Of a stretch of 64,000 bases of DNA, positions 3 to 20,661 are shown piece after piece; position 1 is the stretch's first letter, and each line of letters starts with the position of its first letter. Position numbers and translations under genes: made by a program. Below the pieces are notes generated by a model, which made no database searches, was not told the origin of the DNA, and worked only from the letters and a program-made list of their open reading frames with translations. The stretch comes from Tautonia marina (GTDB lineage: Bacteria > Planctomycetota > Planctomycetia > Isosphaerales > Isosphaeraceae): contig NZ_WEZF01000010.1 in assembly GCF_009177065.1 (NCBI RefSeq), positions 62,001-126,000 of the forward strand, in the 5' to 3' direction.

Positions 3-1508
3 CGCGTGCAGGGCACCTACGTCGACCCGAACAAGAACTGGCAGCCGACCGATTTCCCACCGGTCACGAACAGCCTGTACGAGACGCAGGACGGGGGCGA
101 GGTCATCCCCCGCGACGTGGTGCTGACGCTCACCAACCACCCCGAGGCCGCCCAGCGCATCGCCAAGATCATCCTGGAGCAGGGACGCCAGGGCATCCAG
201 GTTGAGCTGAAGCTCAAGCACAGCGCCCTGTCCTACGCCGTGTGGGACACCGTGACGCTCACCAACACCCCGCTCGGCTGGGAGAGCAAGGTCTTCCGCA
301 TCAGTAACTTGCAGACGGAGGGCATCGGTCCGATCACCCTGAGCCTCCAGGAGGAGAGCGCGGCCAGCTACGACTGGGCGGCCGGTCAGGCGTCCACCTA
401 CGACGCGGCCCCGGACACGAACCTGCCCAGCCCGTTCAACGTGGCACCGCCCGTGTCGCTGACCGTGACCGAGGACTTGTACGTCACCCGCGAGGGGGAC
501 GGCGTGAAGGCGAAGGCCATCATGAGCTGGGTCGCCTCGCCGGACGCCTTCATCTATCTATACCAGCCCGAATACAAGCTCGCGTCCGATACCGAGTGGA
601 TCCCGCTACCGCGTACCCCTTCTACGACCGCCGAGGTGTTGGACATCGCGCCGGACATCTACAACTTCCGGGTCAAGGCGATCAACACGCTGAACGCTTC
701 GTCGGTGTACACCGAGACCACCAAACAGATCTCGGGCCTCGCGGCCCCGCCGACCGCCCCGCAGAACCTCTACTGGACGGCCATCGGCGGGTTGGCCTAC
801 CTGAATTGGGCTCCGTCCCCCGACCTCGACGTGCGCATCGGCGGCAAGTACGTCTTCCGCTACTCGCCGGACACTTCGGACGGGTGGGCGAACAGCACCA
901 CCATCGGCAACGCCGTGCCGGGCAGTTCGTCGCAGGCTCTCCTGCCGCTCAAGACGGGCATATATCTGGTGAAGGCCGAGGACTCAAGCGGCGTGCAGTC
1001 ATCCACCACCTCCAGCGTCATCGTGACGCAGGACACGATTTACGCCCTGTCGGTCATTGCCACGTTGACCGAGGACCCCACGTTCGGCGGTTCGAAGACC
1101 AACTGCTCGGTCTCCGGTGGCGTTCTCTCGCTCACCGACACAACCCTGCCCGGGACGTACCTGTTCAGCAGCAAGATGGACCTCGGGAGCGTAAAGCGGG
1201 TGCGCCTCACTGCGAAGTTAAAGGCCGCCGTGGTGAACCCATCCGACTTGTTCGACAGCCGCTCCGGATTGTTCGACGACGCGGAAGGCAGTTTCGACGG
1301 TGACGACACCGCGTCCGCTGATGCCGTGGTGTTCGTGCGGTCAACGCAGACTGATCCCAACGGCAGCCCGACGTGGACGGCTTGGAACCGACTGGATTCC
1401 GGTGAGTTCGTGGCAAGAGGGTTCGACTTCAAGGTAGAGCTGGTGTCATACGACTCAGCGTTCAACATCGAGATCAGCGAATTAGAAGCAGAAGCAGCGG
1501 AGTTGTAA
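3..1508 (+). CDS. phage tail tip / fibronectin-III tail protein (5' partial)
   Basis: The reading frame is open to the window edge, so the N-terminus is missing; the first in-window start codon is a GTG at 6. The first ~125 visible residues (the stretch with NHPEAAQRIAKIILEQGRQG) look like the late part of a phage tail-tip or baseplate protein of the lambda J type. They are followed by two fibronectin type III-like segments (about residues 150-240 and 245-340, the second opening with APPTAPQNLYWTAIGG) and a beta-rich C-terminal domain. The gene abuts the next one (TAA at 1506-1508, GTG at 1509). Its likely role is in the tail tip and host contact. FN3 repeats are common in tail proteins of dsDNA phages. 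The tail-tip family assignment is inference from position and sequence flavour. Confidence 0.7.
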   Translation, partial: RVQGTYVDPNKNWQPTDFPPVTNSLYETQDGGEVIPRDVVLTLTNHPEAAQRIAKIILEQGRQGIQVELKLKHSALSYAVWDTVTLTNTPLGWESKVFRISNLQTEGIGPITLSLQEESAASYDWAAGQASTYDAAPDTNLPSPFNVAPPVSLTVTEDLYVTREGDGVKAKAIMSWVASPDAFIYLYQPEYKLASDTEWIPLPRTPSTTAEVLDIAPDIYNFRVKAINTLNASSVYTETTKQISGLAAPPTAPQNLYWTAIGGLAYLNWAPSPDLDVRIGGKYVFRYSPDTSDGWANSTTIGNAVPGSSSQALLPLKTGIYLVKAEDSSGVQSSTTSSVIVTQDTIYALSVIATLTEDPTFGGSKTNCSVSGGVLSLTDTTLPGTYLFSSKMDLGSVKRVRLTAKLKAAVVNPSDLFDSRSGLFDDAEGSFDGDDTASADAVVFVRSTQTDPNGSPTWTAWNRLDSGEFVARGFDFKVELVSYDSAFNIEISELEAEAAEL

Positions 1509-4365: not shown

Positions 4366-4507
4366 TGCTGTTCTCGAAAGACTGGCTCTTCTGCTTGAGC
4401 GGGAGTGCCGCCTGGCTGGCGTGGATATTGAGCCGGAAACGACGAAAATCATCGAAAAGCTGAAGAGGAACCATGAAGGTATCGGATCGCGGGATCGCAC
4501 TGATTAA
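4349..4507 (+). CDS. possible 52-residue overlapping protein
   Basis: An ATG at 4349 opens a frame reading MEPTRNAVLERLALLLERE and ending at the TAA at 4505-4507. It overlaps both the preceding gene (by 17 nt) and the lysozyme gene (by 35 nt). The product is helical and charged with no known motif. A competing ATG at 4365 would encode a 32-residue membrane-like peptide (MLFSKDWLFCLSGSAAWLAW) in another frame. Otherwise about 107 nt between the two flanking genes would be empty, which is unusual in this compact block, so one of the two is probably used. Confidence 0.4.
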   Translation: MEPTRNAVLERLALLLERECRLAGVDIEPETTKIIEKLKRNHEGIGSRDRTD

Positions 4508-5129
4508 AGACCACGAAGGGTTGCGGCTGGAGGCGTACCTATGCCCCGGCAACGTCTGGACAATCGGCTACGGCTCCACCAAAGGCGTGAAGCAAGGCAT
4601 GAAGGTGACCAAGAAACAGGCCGAGGAAATGCTGCGTCGCGATATTGGCAGGTTCGAGCGGGCGGTGAACAAGTTGGTCACCATGGAATTGTCGCAGGAG
4701 CAGTTCGACGCGCTGGTGTCGCTCGCCTTTAACATCGGCGAAGGCGCGTTTGCAAAGTCCAAGCTATTGGAGGTTCTAAACGCGGGGAAATATCGCGACG
4801 CAGCCGCGCAGTTCCCGAAGTGGCGCAAGTCGGCGGGCAAAGTGCTGCCTGGCTTGGTCAAGCGCCGCGCCGCCGAGAAAGCCCTGTTCCTCGAAGGCAC
4901 CGCCCCCGAGCCCTTGAAGCCGCTCACCAAGAGCCGTGAACTGATCGGCAGCACCGTGGCTGCGGTCGGCACTGCGGGCGACGTCGCCCTCTCCGAGGCC
5001 AAGGACGCGATCGAGCCGGTCATCGGCTACTCGGAAACCCTTCGCTGGCTTTTCATCGCCCTCGTATTCGTCGGCCTCGGCCTGACCATCTATGGGCGGC
5101 TCAGCAACCGGAGGAAGGGCATTGTTTAA
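4473..5129 (+). CDS. GH24 lysozyme (endolysin) with C-terminal membrane anchor
   Basis: The 218-residue enzyme is a T4/lambdoid-type muramidase that cleaves peptidoglycan. The catalytic signature E-8aa-[D/C]-5aa-T is present as Glu15, Cys24 and Thr30 (KDHEG, ...CPGNVWTIGYGS), followed by a normal GH24 core (LSQEQFDALVSLAFNIGEGA) to about residue 150. It has no N-terminal signal-anchor. Instead, residues ~188-210 (LRWLFIALVFVGLGLTIYG) form a strong C-terminal transmembrane helix after a linker, which is unusual for GH24 endolysins. The start ATG has an AGAGGA site upstream, and the stop overlaps the following spanin gene. The membrane tail may tether the enzyme until holin triggering. Confidence 0.9.
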   Translation: MKVSDRGIALIKDHEGLRLEAYLCPGNVWTIGYGSTKGVKQGMKVTKKQAEEMLRRDIGRFERAVNKLVTMELSQEQFDALVSLAFNIGEGAFAKSKLLEVLNAGKYRDAAAQFPKWRKSAGKVLPGLVKRRAAEKALFLEGTAPEPLKPLTKSRELIGSTVAAVGTAGDVALSEAKDAIEPVIGYSETLRWLFIALVFVGLGLTIYGRLSNRRKGIV

Positions 5130-6399: not shown

Positions 6400-6862
6400 A
6401 TTTATAGTCCTTCTATTAATGCTAATGACATTGTCGCCTCAATGATGCGACTTGCAAATAGTGAATCAGACGCCGCCTTAGGTCAAGCGCACGATCGCTG
6501 TAGTCGCTTCTATTTCCGGTTGGCTCCCCGCCGCGGGCATGCTACACCTTGTCGGGCCGAATCCCAGCCGACCGCCCAGCATGTCCTTCGCCAGCCGCTT
6601 CTCCTCCAAAGATCGCCCCGACTCATTCGTGGAACGTGTCAGGCCGTCTCGCGGCCAGGGGCTTTTCTCGTTCTCCGAACCCCCTCCCCATACCGTGCAC
6701 GGCCCGCCAGGGCCTTCCTCCGCGACCGTACCTCCCCAGCCGTCCGCTTCAAGCTGCAATGGGTCCCCTCCCATTTCGCTTGACCCGGCCGTTGCTGAGT
6801 CGGTTGATCGCTCCGACGTCAGGCCCCCGCTCGCGGGGCCTTCAACGTCTCAAGGAGGTTCC
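6400..6862. promoter_or_regulatory. divergent intergenic region with hairpin leader of the methylase-helicase
   Basis: The first ~80 nt (6380-6460) are AT-rich with TATTTATAG and TTCTATTAATG blocks, and probably hold the promoter of the minus-strand gene. The rest is GC-rich. The helicase frame is open backwards to an ATG at 6539, but that extension is low-complexity Ser/Pro/Arg sequence. A hairpin (AGGCCCC / GGGGCCT, 6821-6841) lies just before a strong AAGGAGG site (6852-6858) and the ATG at 6863. The hairpin may be an attenuator or the terminator of an upstream transcript. Confidence 0.4.
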
Positions 6863-9800
6863 ATGGACAATCCCCTCTCATCAGGCGAGAAAGCCAAAGC
6901 CCGCGACATCCTCGCCGCCATCCGCACGCTCAAGACCGTCGAACGCGAGCAGCGTCCCCCCACCGACGACGAGATGCAGGCCCTCCGCCGATTCGGCGGC
7001 TTCGGGGCGGTGGCCCTCTCCATCTTCTCCGATCCCGTCACTGGCCAGTTCAAGGACGGCTGGCGCGAGATCGGCGAGGAGCTCCGCTCGCTCCTGACCC
7101 CCGAGGAATACGACTCCGCCAAGCGGACGACCTTCTCCCAGTTCTTCACCTCCCCCGTCGTCATGCGGGCCATGCACGACGCCCTTTCGCGTTTGGGCGT
7201 TCCTACCACCGCGACCGTGCTCGAGCCGGGATGCGGGACCGGCAATTTCATGGCTCACGCTCCCGCAGGTCAGCGGTTCATCGGCGTCGAGCTCGACTCC
7301 CTCACCGGCCGCATTGCCCGCGAGCTGCATCCCTCGGCAGATATCCGCATCGAAAACTTCCGCGACTCGAAGCTCCCTCCTCTCGACGCCGTGATCGGCA
7401 ACGTCCCCTTCGCCAACGTCCACCTCGACTTCCACGGCCGGAAGCTCTCCCTCCACGACTTCTGCATCGCCAAGTCGGTCGAGGCCCTGAAGCCCGGCGG
7501 CGTCCTCGCCGTGGTCACCAGCCACTTCACCCTCGACAAGCAGAACGCCGCCGTCCGCGAACTGCTCGCCTCGCAGGCCGACTTCCTCGGGGCCATCCGC
7601 CTGCCGAATGACGCCTTCAAGCGGGAGGGCACGGCGGTCACCACGGACATCCTGTTCCTGCGTAAGCGGGCCCCCGGCCAGGCGCCGAACCACGCGGACC
7701 CGGAATGGCTGGAAACCTCCGAGATCGGCATCGCCGGGGCCGACCTGCCGGTCAACCGCTACTTCCTGAACCACGACGAGATGGTCCTCGGCGACTGGAG
7801 TCGCGAGCACCTGCTCCACGGGGCGGTCGGGTTCAGCGTGAAGTCGAACGGCGACCTGGCCAGCCAGCTCAAGGAGGCCATCGCCCGGTTGCCGCAGGTG
7901 AAGCAGTCCGAGGCGGAGCGGCCGAATCCGCCTCCGGCCGTTCTACTAGACCCCGAAAAACGAGTAGATGTAGTAGAAGTCCAAGTAGAAAAACCAGCCT
8001 TCGTCCCGCCCCCGCCGCTCCGGCATATCACCGAAGGCTCCCTGTTCGTCGGCGACGACAAGGTCATCCGCCAGGTCGAGAACGGAACTGCCGAGCCCGT
8101 CACCTACTGCGGCGTCCTCCTCAGGTCCGACGGCACGCCCCAGGCCCGAAAGATCGGCTCGCTCATCGGGCTGCGCGACCTCGCCCGCCGCGTGCTCCAG
8201 TCCCAGAACGAGGGCTGGCCCGAGGCGAACCGCCAGGAGGCACGCCGGGCGCTCAACGCGGCCTACGACCGATTCGTGGCCCAGTACGGCCCGGTCAATA
8301 AGACCACGTTCACGGAGACCAAGAACGGCACCATCCGCCGCATGCCCAACCTGGTGAAGTTCCGGGAGGACCCGGACGCCATGCTCGTCATGAGCCTCGA
8401 GGAGTACGACGAGGCGACCGGCAAGGCGGAGAAGGCCGCTATCATGAAGCGGGACGTGGTCGGCCCGAAGCCGCCCGTCACGCACGTCGCCTCCGCGGAG
8501 GAAGGGCTGCTGGTCTCGCTGAACGAGCGAGGGGCCGTCGACCTGCCGTTCATCGCCTTGCTCTACGGGAAGCCCGAGGAGGCCGTCGTCGCCGAGCTTG
8601 GCGACCTGATCTTCAAAAACCCTGAGACCGGGAAGTTCGAAGTCGCCGACGACTACCTCTCGGGGAACGTCCGCCACAAGCTCGCCGTCGCCGAGAAGGC
8701 AGGGCCGGGGTATGCCCGGAACGTCGAGGCCCTGCGCTCAGTCCAGCCCGAGGACGTGCTACCCGGCGACATCGACGCGAACCTGGGCGCCCCATGGATC
8801 CCCGAGAAGGACATCAAGGCGTTCGCTGAGGAGCTCTTCGGCGGCTCGTTCACCGTCGGACACCTGAAGAAGGATGCCGTCTGGAGCCTGGAGCCCGACT
8901 ACCGGGCCATCCAGTCGGTCGCGGCCACCGCCGACTTCGGGACCGGCCGGATCAACGGCACGGAGCTGCTCGCCCAGGCCTTGAACCTGAAATCACCGGT
9001 CATCTACGACACGATCCGCGGCGTCAACGGCGACGAGCGGGTCCTGAACCCGACCGAGACGCAGGCCGCCAAGGAGAAGCAGAAGCTCATCAAGGAGCGG
9101 TTCAAGTCGTGGATCTTCGCCGACCCCGACCGCACCGAGCGGCTGGTGAGGATCTACAACGACACCTACAACAACATCCGGCCACGGCTGTTCGATGGCA
9201 GCCATCTAGATTTTCCGGGGATGAGCAGGGCGATCACGCTCAAGCCCCATCAGGTCGACGCGGTCTGGCGGTGCATGACGGCGGGGAACACGCTGCTCGC
9301 GCACGCCGTCGGAGCGGGCAAGGCCCAGCCACTCGACGCGAAAGTCCTGACACCAACTGGCTGGGTGCGGATGGGCAACCTCCGGCCGGGGGATAAGGTA
9401 ATCGCGGGCGATGGCACCGTGACGCAGGTCACTGGAGTTTTCCCGCAAGGTGAGAAGGCAATCTGGCGGGTTGCCTTCTCCGATGGCTCATCTACGCGAG
9501 CATGCGGAGAGCATCTCTGGCTGACCCAGACGAGTGCGGAACGGCAGCGATGGAATGAGGCGAAGCGCGAAGGGCATGTCACCGTCAAGGGGCAACCCAA
9601 AGTCAGAACTACGGAGGAGCTAGCCCGAACTATTCACGAACGGCACTACGTGCCGCTGACCGGCCCGGTTGAATTCACTGCCGTTGAGTTGCCACTCGAC
9701 CCATACACCCTCGGCGTGCTCATCGGCGACGCATCCTTCCGCCAGTTCTCGGTCCAACTGGCAGTCCCCGAGTCCGTTCAACTCGATTACCTCGCGCTGC

Positions 9801-12800
9801 CCGCTGGCGTGACGGCGAAGACCTGGTCGAAGCCGGGGAAGTGTCCCGTCGCGTGGATGGTCGCGGGCGGCGTCAGGCCGAACCCGCTCAACAAGATCAT
9901 CCGTGAGCTTGGGCTGTGGAACTTGAAGAGCCGCGACAAGTTCATCCCTAACGACTACCTCTACGCCTCCCCGGCCGACCGCCTGGGGATGATCCAGGGC
10001 CTGATGGATGCCGACGGTGGGGTGGTGGGGCGGACGGCCCGGTACACCAGCTACTCGGAGAGATTGGCCGACGGAATGGTCGCGCTGGTGAGGAGCTTGG
10101 GCGGCATCCCGCACAAGCGCATCATGGAAGGCGCTGCGCCAGGAAGCGTCAAATTCACCGTAGACGTAAAGCTGCCTGATGGAATGGTTCCATTTCGGCT
10201 GAAGCGAAAGGTGCTAGCCTGGAAGGGGTCCACAATAAATCGCCGCACCCCGAAGCGGTGCATCGTCTCTATATCCCCTGACGGGGTCGCACCCTCCCAG
10301 TGTATCGCAGTAGCCCACCCGTCGCGCCTCTACATCACGGATGATTTCATCGTCACCCACAACACCTACGAGATGTGCGCCGCCGGAATGAAGATGAAGC
10401 AGGCTGGCATCATTAAAAAACCGATGTACTGCATCGCGAACAACATGCTGGAGCAGTTCGCTCGCGAATTCCTCCAGTTATATCCTGATGCCAAGCTTCT
10501 CGTCGCGACCAAGGAGGATTTCACGCGAGAAAAGCGAAAACTCCTGACGGCTCGGATCGCTTCAGGAGACTGGGATGGCATCATCACCACTCATTCGAGC
10601 TTCGAGCGGATTGGTATGTCGCGTGAGTTCCAAGAGCGGTTCCTGCGCGATCAGATCAAAGAATACGAAGATCTCCTGATTGACAAGGCCACGCTGGGCC
10701 GGAACATCACGAAGACGCTAGAAAAGCAAAAAGTGGCGAGGGAAGAAAAGCTCAAAGCTCTTCTGGCTGAGGACAAGAAGGACAGTGGTTTGGTCTTCGA
10801 TGAGTTGGGGATTGACCACCTGTTCGTAGACGAGTCGGCGATGAGTTTCAAAAACCTCGAAACTCCCACCAAGATGGAGCGTGTCGCAGGCATCCAGACC
10901 AGCGGCTCCGAACGGGCCTTTGATCTGTACATGAAGTGCCGCTACCTCGACGAACGCCACCCTGGCCACGGCGTCACGTTCGCCACAGGCACGCCGATCA
11001 CGAATACCATGGTCGAGATGTACACCAACCAGCGGTTCCTCGACCCCGAGGGGCTCCGCTCGCGCGGCATCGAGCACTTCGACGCTTGGGCCGCCACGTT
11101 CGGCGAGGTTGTGGACTCCATGGAGATCTCGCCCGACGGTGCATCGCTCCGGCCCCGCAGCCGCTTCGCGAAGTTCGTGAACCTGCCCGAGCTGGTCCAG
11201 ATGTTCCGCGCCTTCGCCGACGTGCAGACGGCGGAGATGCTGGACCTGCCCCGGCCGAAGCTTGAAGGCGGGAAGCCCCAGACCATGGCCTGCCCCATGT
11301 CCGAGGAGCAGAAGGGTTTGCAGGCGGGGCTCATCAAGCGGTACGACCGCATCCGCAACGAGAAGGTCGATCCACGCGAGGACAACGCCCTGGCGATCAC
11401 CACGGACGGCCGCAAGCTGGCCCTCGACGGCCGGATGCTCGGGACCGGGGGCGACTTCCCGGAGTCGAAGATCAACGCCCTGGTCAGGAACGTGGCCCGG
11501 ATCTGGAACGCGACCGCCGAGAAACGCGGCACGCAGATGGTCTTCTGCGACATGGGCGTGAACGCAAACCCGTTCTCGGCCTACGACGAGATCGTGGAGA
11601 AGTTGGTCGACCACGGCATCCCACGGGCCCAGATCGCCGTGATCGGCGATGCCGACACCGACGCGAAGAAGCAGGCACTGTTCGAGAAGGTCCGTCAGGG
11701 CACCGTTCGCGTGCTCCTGGGCTCGACGTCCAAGATGGGCACGGGCACCAACGTCCAGAAGCGACTGGTGGCCCTCCATCACCTCGACGCCCCCTGGAAG
11801 CCCGCCGAGGTCGAGCAGCGAGACGGCCGCATCCTCCGTCAGGGCAATGAGAACTCCGAGGTGGCCATCTACCGATACGTCACCGAGGGTTCGTTCGACG
11901 CCTACATGTGGCAGGCGTTGGAGACCAAGGCCCGATTCATCGCCCAGGTGATGAGCGGCGACTGCGCGGTCAGGAAGGCCGAGGACATCGGCGGCCAGGA
12001 GCTGAGCTATGCCGAGGTGAAGGCCATCGCCTCGGGCAACCCGGCCGTGCTGACGCTGGCCGAGGCCGACGCCGAGCTCCAGCGGCTGGCTATTCTGCGG
12101 AAGAACCACCTGGACGAGCAGTACCGCGCAAGGCAGTCGGTCAGGGACCTCCCCGACGACATCCGGCGGCTGGAGAAGCGGCTGGAGGGCTTGGAGGCCG
12201 ACAAGGCGACACTCGCGAAGAGCGAGGCTGTTCCGTCGCAGGAGGCAGTCGCCGATCGCATGAAGCGGATGCCGGAGAAGGTGAGCGAGACCTACCGCAC
12301 CCCGCTCGGGCGATACCGCGGACTGGAGGCCAGCCTGATCCTGCACCCGCTCGGCGGGACGGAGGTCGTGCTGGACGGGGCGACCCGACGCCGGGAGACG
12401 CTGCTGCGGGACAACCCCGGCCCGCGTGCCGTGCTGAACGCGCTGGAACGGCTGGCGAACAGCTATGACTACGATTGCCGGAGCCACCGGGCGGAGATCG
12501 GTGTGAGGCAGGGCCAGCTCAAGGACTACGAGGCCCGCCTCGGAAAACCGTTCGAACATGCCGACTACATGAGCCAGCTGGCGGGCCTTCGCGACCTGCT
12601 CAAGGCCGGCCTCTCGGAGAACCCACCCGAGGGCATCCCTCCCGCCGGCGAGGTGGCCGAGAAGATCAAGGCGTTGCGGGAGGCGAACACCGTCGAGGCC
12701 GCCCCCGAGCGTGCGGTGAGGAAGGCCGCAAGGGCCGAGAGGCCGGTGACAGCCCGGCTCAGGGAAAAGCTGGCCGAGCAGCAGGCGGCCGAGGTGCCAG

Positions 12801-12967
12801 CTTCGGTCGAGGCCAACCCGGAGCCGGACGCAGCCCAGCCCGAGCCTGTTCAGGCGCCAGAGCACGTGGTCGTCCCCATGCCGGACCGGGTGAGGCTGAC
12901 GAACGGCCACGCCAAGGCGGTGGTCAGCCGCCGCCAGGCGAAGGCGGAGCAGTTGAGACTGTTCTGA
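6863..12967 (+). CDS. DarB-like DNA methyltransferase-SNF2 helicase, split by an intein
   Basis: The precursor has 2034 residues from the ATG at 6863, which has an AAGGAGG site; starts further upstream add only low-complexity sequence. An N-terminal adenine-type methyltransferase shows motif I (VLEPGCGTGNF, ~residue 119) and motif IV in the variant form GNVPFA (~176). A SNF2-type helicase follows with Walker A GAGK/T (Lys820), interrupted by the intein (residues 821-1167). It continues with Walker B-like VDESAMSF (~1321), ATGTPITNT (~1373) and motif VI QRDGRILRQGN (~1651). The Arg/Glu-rich C-terminus is coiled. This architecture matches the phage P1 DarB type and related mobile-element proteins that protect incoming DNA from restriction. 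After splicing, the mature protein would be 1687 residues. Confidence 0.85.
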   Translation: MDNPLSSGEKAKARDILAAIRTLKTVEREQRPPTDDEMQALRRFGGFGAVALSIFSDPVTGQFKDGWREIGEELRSLLTPEEYDSAKRTTFSQFFTSPVVMRAMHDALSRLGVPTTATVLEPGCGTGNFMAHAPAGQRFIGVELDSLTGRIARELHPSADIRIENFRDSKLPPLDAVIGNVPFANVHLDFHGRKLSLHDFCIAKSVEALKPGGVLAVVTSHFTLDKQNAAVRELLASQADFLGAIRLPNDAFKREGTAVTTDILFLRKRAPGQAPNHADPEWLETSEIGIAGADLPVNRYFLNHDEMVLGDWSREHLLHGAVGFSVKSNGDLASQLKEAIARLPQVKQSEAERPNPPPAVLLDPEKRVDVVEVQVEKPAFVPPPPLRHITEGSLFVGDDKVIRQVENGTAEPVTYCGVLLRSDGTPQARKIGSLIGLRDLARRVLQSQNEGWPEANRQEARRALNAAYDRFVAQYGPVNKTTFTETKNGTIRRMPNLVKFREDPDAMLVMSLEEYDEATGKAEKAAIMKRDVVGPKPPVTHVASAEEGLLVSLNERGAVDLPFIALLYGKPEEAVVAELGDLIFKNPETGKFEVADDYLSGNVRHKLAVAEKAGPGYARNVEALRSVQPEDVLPGDIDANLGAPWIPEKDIKAFAEELFGGSFTVGHLKKDAVWSLEPDYRAIQSVAATADFGTGRINGTELLAQALNLKSPVIYDTIRGVNGDERVLNPTETQAAKEKQKLIKERFKSWIFADPDRTERLVRIYNDTYNNIRPRLFDGSHLDFPGMSRAITLKPHQVDAVWRCMTAGNTLLAHAVGAGKAQPLDAKVLTPTGWVRMGNLRPGDKVIAGDGTVTQVTGVFPQGEKAIWRVAFSDGSSTRACGEHLWLTQTSAERQRWNEAKREGHVTVKGQPKVRTTEELARTIHERHYVPLTGPVEFTAVELPLDPYTLGVLIGDASFRQFSVQLAVPESVQLDYLALPAGVTAKTWSKPGKCPVAWMVAGGVRPNPLNKIIRELGLWNLKSRDKFIPNDYLYASPADRLGMIQGLMDADGGVVGRTARYTSYSERLADGMVALVRSLGGIPHKRIMEGAAPGSVKFTVDVKLPDGMVPFRLKRKVLAWKGSTINRRTPKRCIVSISPDGVAPSQCIAVAHPSRLYITDDFIVTHNTYEMCAAGMKMKQAGIIKKPMYCIANNMLEQFAREFLQLYPDAKLLVATKEDFTREKRKLLTARIASGDWDGIITTHSSFERIGMSREFQERFLRDQIKEYEDLLIDKATLGRNITKTLEKQKVAREEKLKALLAEDKKDSGLVFDELGIDHLFVDESAMSFKNLETPTKMERVAGIQTSGSERAFDLYMKCRYLDERHPGHGVTFATGTPITNTMVEMYTNQRFLDPEGLRSRGIEHFDAWAATFGEVVDSMEISPDGASLRPRSRFAKFVNLPELVQMFRAFADVQTAEMLDLPRPKLEGGKPQTMACPMSEEQKGLQAGLIKRYDRIRNEKVDPREDNALAITTDGRKLALDGRMLGTGGDFPESKINALVRNVARIWNATAEKRGTQMVFCDMGVNANPFSAYDEIVEKLVDHGIPRAQIAVIGDADTDAKKQALFEKVRQGTVRVLLGSTSKMGTGTNVQKRLVALHHLDAPWKPAEVEQRDGRILRQGNENSEVAIYRYVTEGSFDAYMWQALETKARFIAQVMSGDCAVRKAEDIGGQELSYAEVKAIASGNPAVLTLAEADAELQRLAILRKNHLDEQYRARQSVRDLPDDIRRLEKRLEGLEADKATLAKSEAVPSQEAVADRMKRMPEKVSETYRTPLGRYRGLEASLILHPLGGTEVVLDGATRRRETLLRDNPGPRAVLNALERLANSYDYDCRSHRAEIGVRQGQLKDYEARLGKPFEHADYMSQLAGLRDLLKAGLSENPPEGIPPAGEVAEKIKALREANTVEAAPERAVRKAARAERPVTARLREKLAEQQAAEVPASVEANPEPDAAQPEPVQAPEHVVVPMPDRVRLTNGHAKAVVSRRQAKAEQLRLF
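9323..10363 (+). mobile_element. class 3 intein with LAGLIDADG homing endonuclease
   Basis: Residues 821-1167 of the precursor (347 aa) lie exactly between Lys and Thr of the helicase Walker A motif; removal restores GAGKT. The intein starts with Ala (AQPLDAKVLTPTGWVRMGNL) and ends in THN before the +1 Thr. Block B has His at position 10 and Trp at 12 (CGEHLWLT), block F has Cys at position 4 (SQCIAV), and block G has Thr before His-Asn. That is the Trp-Cys-Thr triad defining class 3 inteins, which branch on the internal Cys instead of residue 1. The homing endonuclease motifs are LGVLIGDAS and GLMDADGGV, both keeping their acidic residues, so homing may still be active. Boundaries are precise to the codon. 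Confidence 0.93.
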
Positions 12968-14763: not shown

Positions 14764-15231
14764 ATGGCCAAGAGAGCAGCGAAGGCCGCCCCCAAGCGCA
14801 TCGAGCCCGAGGACGAGAGCCAGGACATCGAGGAGCAGGTGGCCATCGAGTCGCAGGAGCCCGATGAATCCGGCGTCAAGGGGATGACCAAAGCCGAAGC
14901 GATCCGCCGGGCCCTAGCTGCCGGACACGAGGGGCCTCAGGAGGGCACCGCGTATATCCTTAAGGAATTCGGGATCGAGGTCGCGCCACAGCATTTCAGC
15001 GCCACGAAGTCGCAGATGAAGAGCCGGGAGACCAGCAAGAAGTACAAGCCGGGGCGAAAGTCCAAGGCAGCGGCCCCCAGCCAGGGGGTCGAGGGCTACC
15101 TGGCCCCGCCTCCGAAGCAGGCGCCCTCGGGCGGAGAACCCGACCTGCTTGAGGCCATGGAGGCCATGAAGCCGCTGGTCGCCAGCCTCGGCGCCGAGAA
15201 GGTCAAGCGCATCGTGGACCTGCTGGGGTAG
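14764..15231 (+). CDS. planctomycete winged-helix-like hypothetical protein
   Basis: This 155-residue protein has an Ala/Lys-rich, then acidic, N-terminal tail (MAKRAAKAAPKRIEPEDE). A central domain of about 50 residues follows (GMTKAEAIRRALAAGHEG, then ...AYILKEFGIEVAPQHFSATK), and the C-terminal helix ends in KVKRIVDLLG. The central pattern resembles small planctomycete proteins in which a KSEAVRRAL-type helix and a KEFGIE-type helix form a putative DNA-binding winged-helix. It is followed within 1 nt by the transporter gene, so the two are probably co-transcribed. A role as a DNA-associated or regulatory protein is inference. Confidence 0.65.
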   Translation: MAKRAAKAAPKRIEPEDESQDIEEQVAIESQEPDESGVKGMTKAEAIRRALAAGHEGPQEGTAYILKEFGIEVAPQHFSATKSQMKSRETSKKYKPGRKSKAAAPSQGVEGYLAPPPKQAPSGGEPDLLEAMEAMKPLVASLGAEKVKRIVDLLG

Positions 15232-19494: not shown

Positions 19495-20661
19495 CTAGTC
19501 GGCCAATTCCAAGTTCACCGACGCCCTGTAATGCACCGGCTCCAGCAGACAAGTCTTCGACAACGCCCCGCTCAGTATGTATACCCGCGGCCGGCGCGAG
19601 AAATCGAAGACCCGGTAGAGGTGGAACCGCTCCTCGATATCCTCCGAGCAACGTCGCTCGTTCTCCGTGACCACGAAGGGGAAGTACTTTCCGAGGCACG
19701 TTGTCTTGACCTCCAGGCATCGCTCACTATCGTCGGCATCGTCAAATGAGAGCACGTCGAACCCGACGCCATCGCCGCAGGTCTGGGAGATCCATTCTAC
19801 TCGGCTCGCCAGGTCGTCACGTCCTGCAGCCAGAAGTCGCTTCCTCTCTATCTCCAGCGTGAACTGCTCCCCCATCTGCCCTAGCTGTCGATTCAGGGCG
19901 TCCCGCCTCGCGAAATCGACCTTACGTCCCCGCCGCGAGAGCCAAGGCTTTGAATCGCCGCTCGGAAGCACCATCCGGTCGGGCGGATCGTCGAAGTAGC
20001 CCTCCACGCCCCCCTCAGCTAAGGATGGTGACGCTGAAGGGTTCAGCACGGGAGACGCCTCCAACTCCTTCGCCAGCTCGGGATGGGAGTCCAGGTAGGC
20101 CTCGACCACCTGGGGAAGGAGCCGCTTCTGGTAGTTCTTGGCGGGCTTGTAGCCGTTGATGTAAGGCAGCCCCATCTCCAGTAGCACGGCACTGATGTTC
20201 TGGTGCTTGAACTCGACGGAGCCCTTGCTCCGGCCGTTCAGTTGCTCCCGGAGGGCCTGGTTGCGCCCAGCTTTGTTGAAGGGCCGGTCGGCCAGGTCGT
20301 GCCGCAGCATGTCGAAATAGTCGGCGACGATCAGTGAGACTTCCTCGGCGGTCCAGTCTGCACGCTTCTCGGAGTCGGTCGTCTCCTCGCCTTTCTTCTC
20401 GACCTCGAATCCCAACTGCCGCAGAACTTGGTTCGCCTGGCCGGGTGCCTCCCCGCCGCTGAACGCCTCCGGCCGCAGAATTTCGCCGTGAAGGTGACGG
20501 AAGGCCAAGCCGATCACCGCCTTGGGCGGGTAGCGGCGCCCCTCGTAGACGACCTCGTAACCCGTTGGCGCGCCGAACGGATGCTCGACCCCGGCGTCTA
20601 GCTCGCCCAGGGCGAGCCTGACGTGTTCGGCGGTCAGGCCTTTGGGAATCGATTGTGGCAT
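19495..20661 (-). CDS. HEAD-domain / DUF3883 nuclease-like restriction protein
   Basis: The protein has 388 residues. Residues 1-90 (GYEVVYEGRRYPPKAVIGLA) match the ScoMcrA-type N-terminal HEAD domain found in restriction enzymes. A middle domain spans ~100-200 (WTAEEVSLIVADYFDMLRHD, NKAGRNQALREQLNGRSKGS). Residues ~255-385 form a DUF3883-like domain with a PD-(D/E)xK-like pattern: GVGFDVLSFD (Asp) and CLEVKTTCLGK (Glu-x-Lys). DUF3883 is frequent in type I/IIG-like and modified-DNA restriction systems. It lies next to an HNH enzyme with a sulfur-binding domain and probably works with it. Which base modification is sensed cannot be told. Confidence 0.75.
   Translation of the reverse strand: MPQSIPKGLTAEHVRLALGELDAGVEHPFGAPTGYEVVYEGRRYPPKAVIGLAFRHLHGEILRPEAFSGGEAPGQANQVLRQLGFEVEKKGEETTDSEKRADWTAEEVSLIVADYFDMLRHDLADRPFNKAGRNQALREQLNGRSKGSVEFKHQNISAVLLEMGLPYINGYKPAKNYQKRLLPQVVEAYLDSHPELAKELEASPVLNPSASPSLAEGGVEGYFDDPPDRMVLPSGDSKPWLSRRGRKVDFARRDALNRQLGQMGEQFTLEIERKRLLAAGRDDLASRVEWISQTCGDGVGFDVLSFDDADDSERCLEVKTTCLGKYFPFVVTENERRCSEDIEERFHLYRVFDFSRRPRVYILSGALSKTCLLEPVHYRASVNLELAD

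Follow-up and report, generated by a model that had tools for sequence, protein, structure and literature searches.

How did an inserted reading frame come to split the ATPase motif of a prophage gene in Tautonia marina, and what kind of element is it? The gene lies in a 64,000-nucleotide stretch of contig NZ_WEZF01000010.1 (NCBI RefSeq assembly GCF_009177065.1, positions 62,001 to 126,000 of the forward strand; hereafter the window, numbered from its first letter) and codes for a DarB-like methylase-SNF2 protein. The insert separates the Lys and Thr residues of the Walker A motif (VGAGK^T, with the caret marking the insertion point). Our analyses indicate, with a probability of about 0.93, that it is a class 3 intein, full length and with a LAGLIDADG homing endonuclease that looks intact, located in a siphovirus-like prophage and flanked by what appears to be a scar of homing.

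The open reading frame (6539-12967, + strand) encodes 2142 residues and is open throughout. Read at the codon level, the Walker A Lys codon (AAG, 9320-9322) directly precedes the Ala1 codon of the intein (GCC, 9323-9325), and the final intein codon (AAC for Asn347, 10361-10363) directly precedes that of the +1 Thr (ACC, 10364-10366). The extent of the 347-residue intein (9323..10363, + strand), supported by this codon check, by alignments, by an AlphaFold (AF2) model and by fold matches, agrees to the base with that proposed in a first-pass annotation of the sequence. Upstream of it, the N-extein (6539..9322, + strand; 928 residues from the first ATG) comprises the DarB-like methylase part and the start of the SNF2-type ATPase, and its last residues are VGAGK. 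The C-extein (10364..12967, + strand; 867 residues) begins with the +1 Thr of Walker A and contains the remainder of the SNF2/Helicase_C module. Once joined, the flanks read LLAHAVGAGK-TYEMCAAGMK, in agreement with the uninterrupted LLAHxVGAGKT/S of homologous proteins. Chance or a sequencing artefact is ruled out by the open frame and by hundreds of end-to-end homologue matches.

Class 3 inteins are defined by Trp at B:12, Cys at F:4 and Thr at G:5, together with a position 1 devoid of a nucleophile (PMC5222942); a His-Asn end and a +1 residue that is Ser, Thr or, rarely, Cys are also expected. In the window intein position 1 is Ala, not a Ser, Cys or Thr nucleophile, and the class 3 set is complete: Ala1, His64, Trp66, Cys327, Thr345, His346-Asn347 and the +1 Thr. 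The block B region (GSSTRACGEHLWL, 9485..9523, + strand), with the block B sequence GSSTRACGEHLW, includes His64 (B:10) and Trp66 (B:12), two residues apart. Blocks F and G (10292..10363, + strand) include Cys327 (F:4) and, within block G (DFIVTHN/T), Thr345 (G:5), His346 and Asn347, in invariant columns. His64, Trp66, Cys327 and Thr345 are invariant in two alignments of relatives, of 16 and 36 rows, and the complete class 3 set is invariant or close to it. By phmmer, His64/Trp66, Cys327 and Thr345 pair with His65/Trp67, Cys118 and Thr137 of a solved class 3 DnaB intein, Mycobacterium smegmatis DnaBi1 (6bs8), whose Trp-Cys-Thr (WCT) triplet residues are named in PMC6195587, Cys118 being catalytic. 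The class initially proposed from the Ala start and the Trp/Cys/Thr triad is thus upheld by the invariant columns and by the phmmer alignment, which places the Trp and the Cys inside blocks B and F, respectively.

The AF2 model of the intein is of high confidence (mean predicted local distance difference test score, pLDDT, 91.9; predicted template modelling score, pTM, 0.91). Its HINT splicing domain overlays 6bs8 at 1.4 Å over 123 residues (Z 20.7), and overlays on the class 3 inteins 6bs8 and 6rix range from 1.4 to 2.0 Å. The two-domain architecture matches that of PI-SceI over 334 residues (Z 26.5), and the endonuclease architecture also matches I-DmoI. The endonuclease domain, located between blocks B and F, retains both LAGLIDADG motifs, as first annotated. 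Motif 1 (TLGVLIGDA, 9707..9733, + strand) has Asp136 at the catalytic position, invariant among the relatives aligned and replaced by Asn in a congener. Motif 2 (IQGLMDADGG, 9992..10021, + strand) has Asp231 at the catalytic position, which is nearly invariant. The LAGLIDADG_3 match (0.0012) falls narrowly short of the curated cut-off.

The family that best matches the host protein is phrog_10089, of DarB-like antirestriction proteins (E=0, residues 113-1894). Because similarity to the family only begins near residue 113, the true start of the N-extein may lie further in. Pfam detects Helicase_C (PF00271) in the C-extein (2.5e-05), and by Pfam alone the methylase part is weak. Taken together, the phrog_10089 match and the gene context identify an adenine-methylase part and a SNF2-type ATPase on one chain in a prophage, in line with the DarB-like protein of a planctomycete element that had been suggested from the sequence. 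Relatives 45-86% identical to the C-extein half come from genomes of planctomycetes and from viral contigs; phages and >1000 plasmids contain additional ones. The pairing of a DNA methylase with a SWI2/SNF2 ATPase is known from phages and plasmids; its archetype is DarB of phage P1, a virion protein that shields DNA in cis against type I restriction (PMC5512222). By homology, the host protein may similarly be carried in the virion and protect DNA in cis from type I restriction. Of separate note, a DarB-like paralogue in the same genome (L114/L115, G000:C17:142529-144084) seems to be divided between two frames that overlap, as a frameshift or an assembly error would produce.

The intein would be translated inside the DarB-like methylase/SNF2 protein, splitting its Walker A motif. 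Because the Walker A Lys and Thr are kept apart, the precursor would be without ATPase function until splicing; dependence of ATPase activity on splicing has been reported for a P-loop RadA intein (PMC6195587). As expected from the class, Cys327, helped by His64, Trp66 and Thr345, would attack the Lys-Ala1 bond to form the block F branched thioester. The N-extein would then pass to the +1 Thr, Asn347 would cyclise, and the exteins would join, restoring the P-loop as VGAGKT. The predicted spliced product has 1795 residues and should yield a peptide spanning GAGKT (LLAHAVGAGKTYEM). As for mobility, cleavage of intein-free alleles by the endonuclease is predicted near GAGK^T, followed by repair that copies the intein in.

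Intein-free alleles are indeed available: the site is uninterrupted (G[AG]GKT/S) in about 80 homologous loci in which it is readable. Among such loci, the DarB-like site harbours an intein only in the window, in the congener G393 and in the viral contig L156. In the genome to which the window belongs, the paralogous sites on contigs C31 and C17 contain no intein. The intein is carried by two of the four genomes of the genus and by 2 of the 45 of the family; in the phylum, 10 of 392 genomes have any intein match, the next best being 43% identical and found in a different protein. The G393 intein (L116/L240/L235, C1:3463577-3464617) occupies the same site, is 73% identical to that of the window and keeps all the splicing residues. 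It has Asn in place of Asp136 (D136N), which probably disables its nuclease.

Comparison of the two congeneric inteins gave a ratio of nonsynonymous to synonymous differences (pN/pS) of 0.24 overall; the lower values of the splicing parts, given below and obtained with synonymous sites saturated, are compatible with a working intein. At fourfold sites the inteins are 71% different (72% expected at random), and the host genes 47% (58% expected). Vertical inheritance of a single intein since the congeneric alleles split is not favoured, as the fourfold sites of the intein are at the level of random matches and those of the host gene are not. In the intein tree, the window and congener inteins form a separate clade and that of L156 is placed apart, with weak support at that point, which may indicate more than one invasion of the site.

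The host gene itself bears a divergent tract around the intein. Between the window and the congener, the synonymous difference is about 0.4-0.6 per site across most of the host gene and 0.7-0.9 in the intein and about 200 codons downstream of it. A comparison that included two empty alleles shows the window allele to be the odd one: the alleles of G393, L082 and L117 agree mutually in that stretch. Codons unique to the window make up 43 of 132 inside the tract versus 75 of 664 outside (p=1e-8), and three other alleles showed no excess of allele-specific codons inside it. The GC content at third codon positions (GC3) is 0.695 inside the tract versus 0.908 elsewhere in the gene (p=6e-14); it is 0.755 in the intein itself. 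DNA identity to the empty allele L082 is 92% from -720 to -180 bp and 79% in the last 180 bp before the intein; it is 74% over the 600 bp after the intein and 87% over the next 600 bp. A change-point scan against L082, blind to the insertion site, returned the segment from -148 to +649 bp as the best one of low identity, a result equalled in none of 100 block permutations. The tract is made up of a 5' part of about 148 bp (9175..9322, + strand) and a 3' part of about 649 bp (10364..11012, + strand), the lower GC3 having been measured over the first 570 bp of the latter. We read both parts as co-conversion, which would lend indirect support to the predicted cleavage of the empty site.

Naturally read, the tract would result from the repair of a break near GAGK^T with an intein-bearing donor, whose flanking DNA was co-converted, more extensively on the 3' side. 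Some points weigh against this reading. A donor for the tract was sought among all fetched loci and none was better than 74%, so that homing is deduced from position and composition rather than from a donor match; moreover, the residue that follows Asp136 in motif 1 is Ala, not Gly, with possible effects on the endonuclease. Alternatively, prophage alleles might have exchanged the tract by ordinary homologous recombination, the intein being inherited along with it. Phage genes are mosaic, the gene resembles L082 less at its 3' end too, and the failure to identify a donor among the fetched loci suits this scenario as well. Yet the tract delimited by the blind scan brackets the insertion site, is present in the window allele only and has its lower GC3 in common with the intein, as break repair predicts. 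We thus consider ordinary recombination rather unlikely, albeit worth keeping in mind.

As to the nature of the intein, an assignment to class 1 or class 2 with an odd first residue could be envisaged, as class 2 inteins likewise have no N-terminal nucleophile and the HINT fold is common to all classes. The presence of Trp66, Cys327 and Thr345, all of which align with the WCT triplet in class 3 inteins of solved structure, and the fact that class 2 is on record for KlbA only (PMC3196547) make this highly improbable. The intein might also be a decayed member of class 3 that has lost splicing, leaving the host protein a pseudogene. Such decay has been recorded for Arth_1007 (PMC3196547), other intein-free paralogues in the same genome could take over the function, and the residue after Asp136 is Ala in place of Gly. 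We find this very unlikely, considering that all the catalytic splicing residues are kept, whereas Arth_1007 is devoid of Cys F:4 and His B:10, that the host frame is open across its 2142 codons, that the pN/pS of the splicing parts versus the congener is 0.15-0.17, and that the structure model is confident. Finally, the class 3 intein might serve as a conditional switch, with oxidised Cys327 keeping the DarB-like ATPase off until reducing conditions prevail and thereby timing the anti-restriction protein. In M. smegmatis DnaBi1, a class 3 intein also located in a P-loop, H2O2 inhibits splicing via the block F Cys (PMC6195587). However, the DnaBi1 disulfide involves a second Cys, Cys48 (PMC6195587), most alleles do without the intein, which is therefore not needed for function, and the sequence holds nothing that points specifically to regulation, so that a switch appears improbable.

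How unusual is an intein of this kind? At E<=1e-5, it matches 742 phage records, the best at 3e-56 across 100% of its length; matches also occur in 40 plasmid records. A profile scan of viral contigs yielded at least 600 stretches, with 584 of the 600 listed being confirmed. The His-Trp-Cys-Thr-His-Asn set is found in 104 of 107 distinct full-length relatives (window included), among which the +1 residue is Thr in 91, Ser in 10 and Cys in 3. The insertion occurs at G-x-[GSA]-K^T/S in 85 of the 105 relatives whose N-side is readable, a count made with the relaxed pattern G-x-[GSA]-K; a stricter Walker A pattern gave 48 of 107. At P-loop sites the hosts are helicases, secretion-type ATPases and other P-loop proteins, and K^T has been named the classic P-loop intein insertion (PMC5050341). 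Given the abundance of phage matches and the proportion of insertions at GxGK^T/S, class 3 inteins cannot be called rare among phages, the first-pass annotation having overstated their rarity, and the site is typical.

Some of the relatives have features of their own. A single viral protein (L223) is interrupted twice by class 3 inteins, at GLGK^T and at a site outside any P-loop (CY^T). The planctomycete genome G352 has several copies of a gene with a class 3 intein at PRGSGK^T (L101, L108, L110 and L111), two of them full length and nearly identical, the remainder matched only partly. Weaker relatives at an LPTGC-type helicase site (L103 and L109) are without the Ala1 start and possibly belong to class 1, with Cys1.

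Several characterized or sequenced inteins resemble that of the window. M. smegmatis DnaBi1 and Mycobacterium chimaera MchDnaB1 (6rix, 6riy) have the same WCT triplet and HINT fold, and DnaBi1 also has a P-loop insertion site. They are mini-inteins in DnaB, without endonuclease, whereas the window intein is full length and has a DarB-like SNF2 host; in addition, the +1 residue is Ser in DnaBi1 and Thr here. Phage helicase inteins such as those of the PhiPA3 gp233 SNF2 helicase, phage Colt gp179 and Serratia phage BUCT660 are 36-38% identical to that of the window over the full length and similarly combine the class 3 residues, a GxGK^T or GxGK^S site and a LAGLIDADG endonuclease, but they interrupt stand-alone helicases, 800-1100 residues long, of phages that infect other hosts. 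In the viral contig L156 (IMG/VR contig 3300010885_040738), a DarB-like protein is interrupted at exactly the same VGAGK^T position by a class 3 intein that is only 43% identical to the window intein. As described in the papers that cite it, the Deinococcus radiodurans Snf2 intein (Brace et al. 2010) is class 3 via Cys F:4, in a SNF2-family host of another organism, and splices efficiently (PMC3196547, PMC7664689). The TerL1-a P-loop inteins of mycobacteriophages (PMC5050341) differ by their terminase hosts.

The prophage context is provided by the genes upstream of the host gene. In the window, the DarB-like gene is downstream of a tail fibre J-like gene, represented by its C-terminal part (6..1508, + strand; phrog_31, 1.5e-37) and complete in L242, a metallophosphoesterase gene and an endolysin gene (4473..5129, + strand; Phage_lysozyme, 3e-50; phrog_7, 1.9e-66). 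Further upstream on the same contig are genes for primase, terminase large subunit, portal, head morphogenesis, major head protein, tape measure and distal tail proteins. This gene content is that of a siphovirus-like prophage, in which the DarB-like gene follows the late genes and appears to close the late operon. The gene order matches in the congener G393, namely J, the DarB-like gene and a homologue of the gene at 14764-15231. Outside the prophage late genes, a gene at 19495-20661 (- strand) codes for a protein with a NO VEIN C-terminal domain (NOV_C) and adjoins a series of large genes of unassigned function on the minus strand, extending to about 36921.

The intein in itself is not surprising, since the literature already covers the class, insertion at the K^T of P-loops and the presence of a class 3 intein in a Snf2 protein; our literature searches on DarB with an intein and on planctomycete inteins returned nothing on point. 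New are the set of about 80 empty homologous alleles, the D136N intein of the congener and the divergent tract of the window allele. It is tempting, if speculative, to view the window intein as an active homing intein of class 3 that entered the prophage gene only recently, with the window allele, the empty L082 allele (92% and 87% identical beyond the tract) and the D136N congener together illustrating, for a single site, invasion, the scar and the decay of the nuclease. Since the virion may contain the host protein, the intein would need to splice out before packaging, perhaps under redox control.

These findings place a class 3 intein of full length in a methylase/helicase of the anti-restriction type from planctomycete prophages. 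The family-wide count indicates that most relatives hit the same two residues in many kinds of P-loop ATPases. Together with the co-conversion-like scar, the naturally occurring alleles with the intein, without it and with a mutant nuclease make the homing of class 3 inteins testable.

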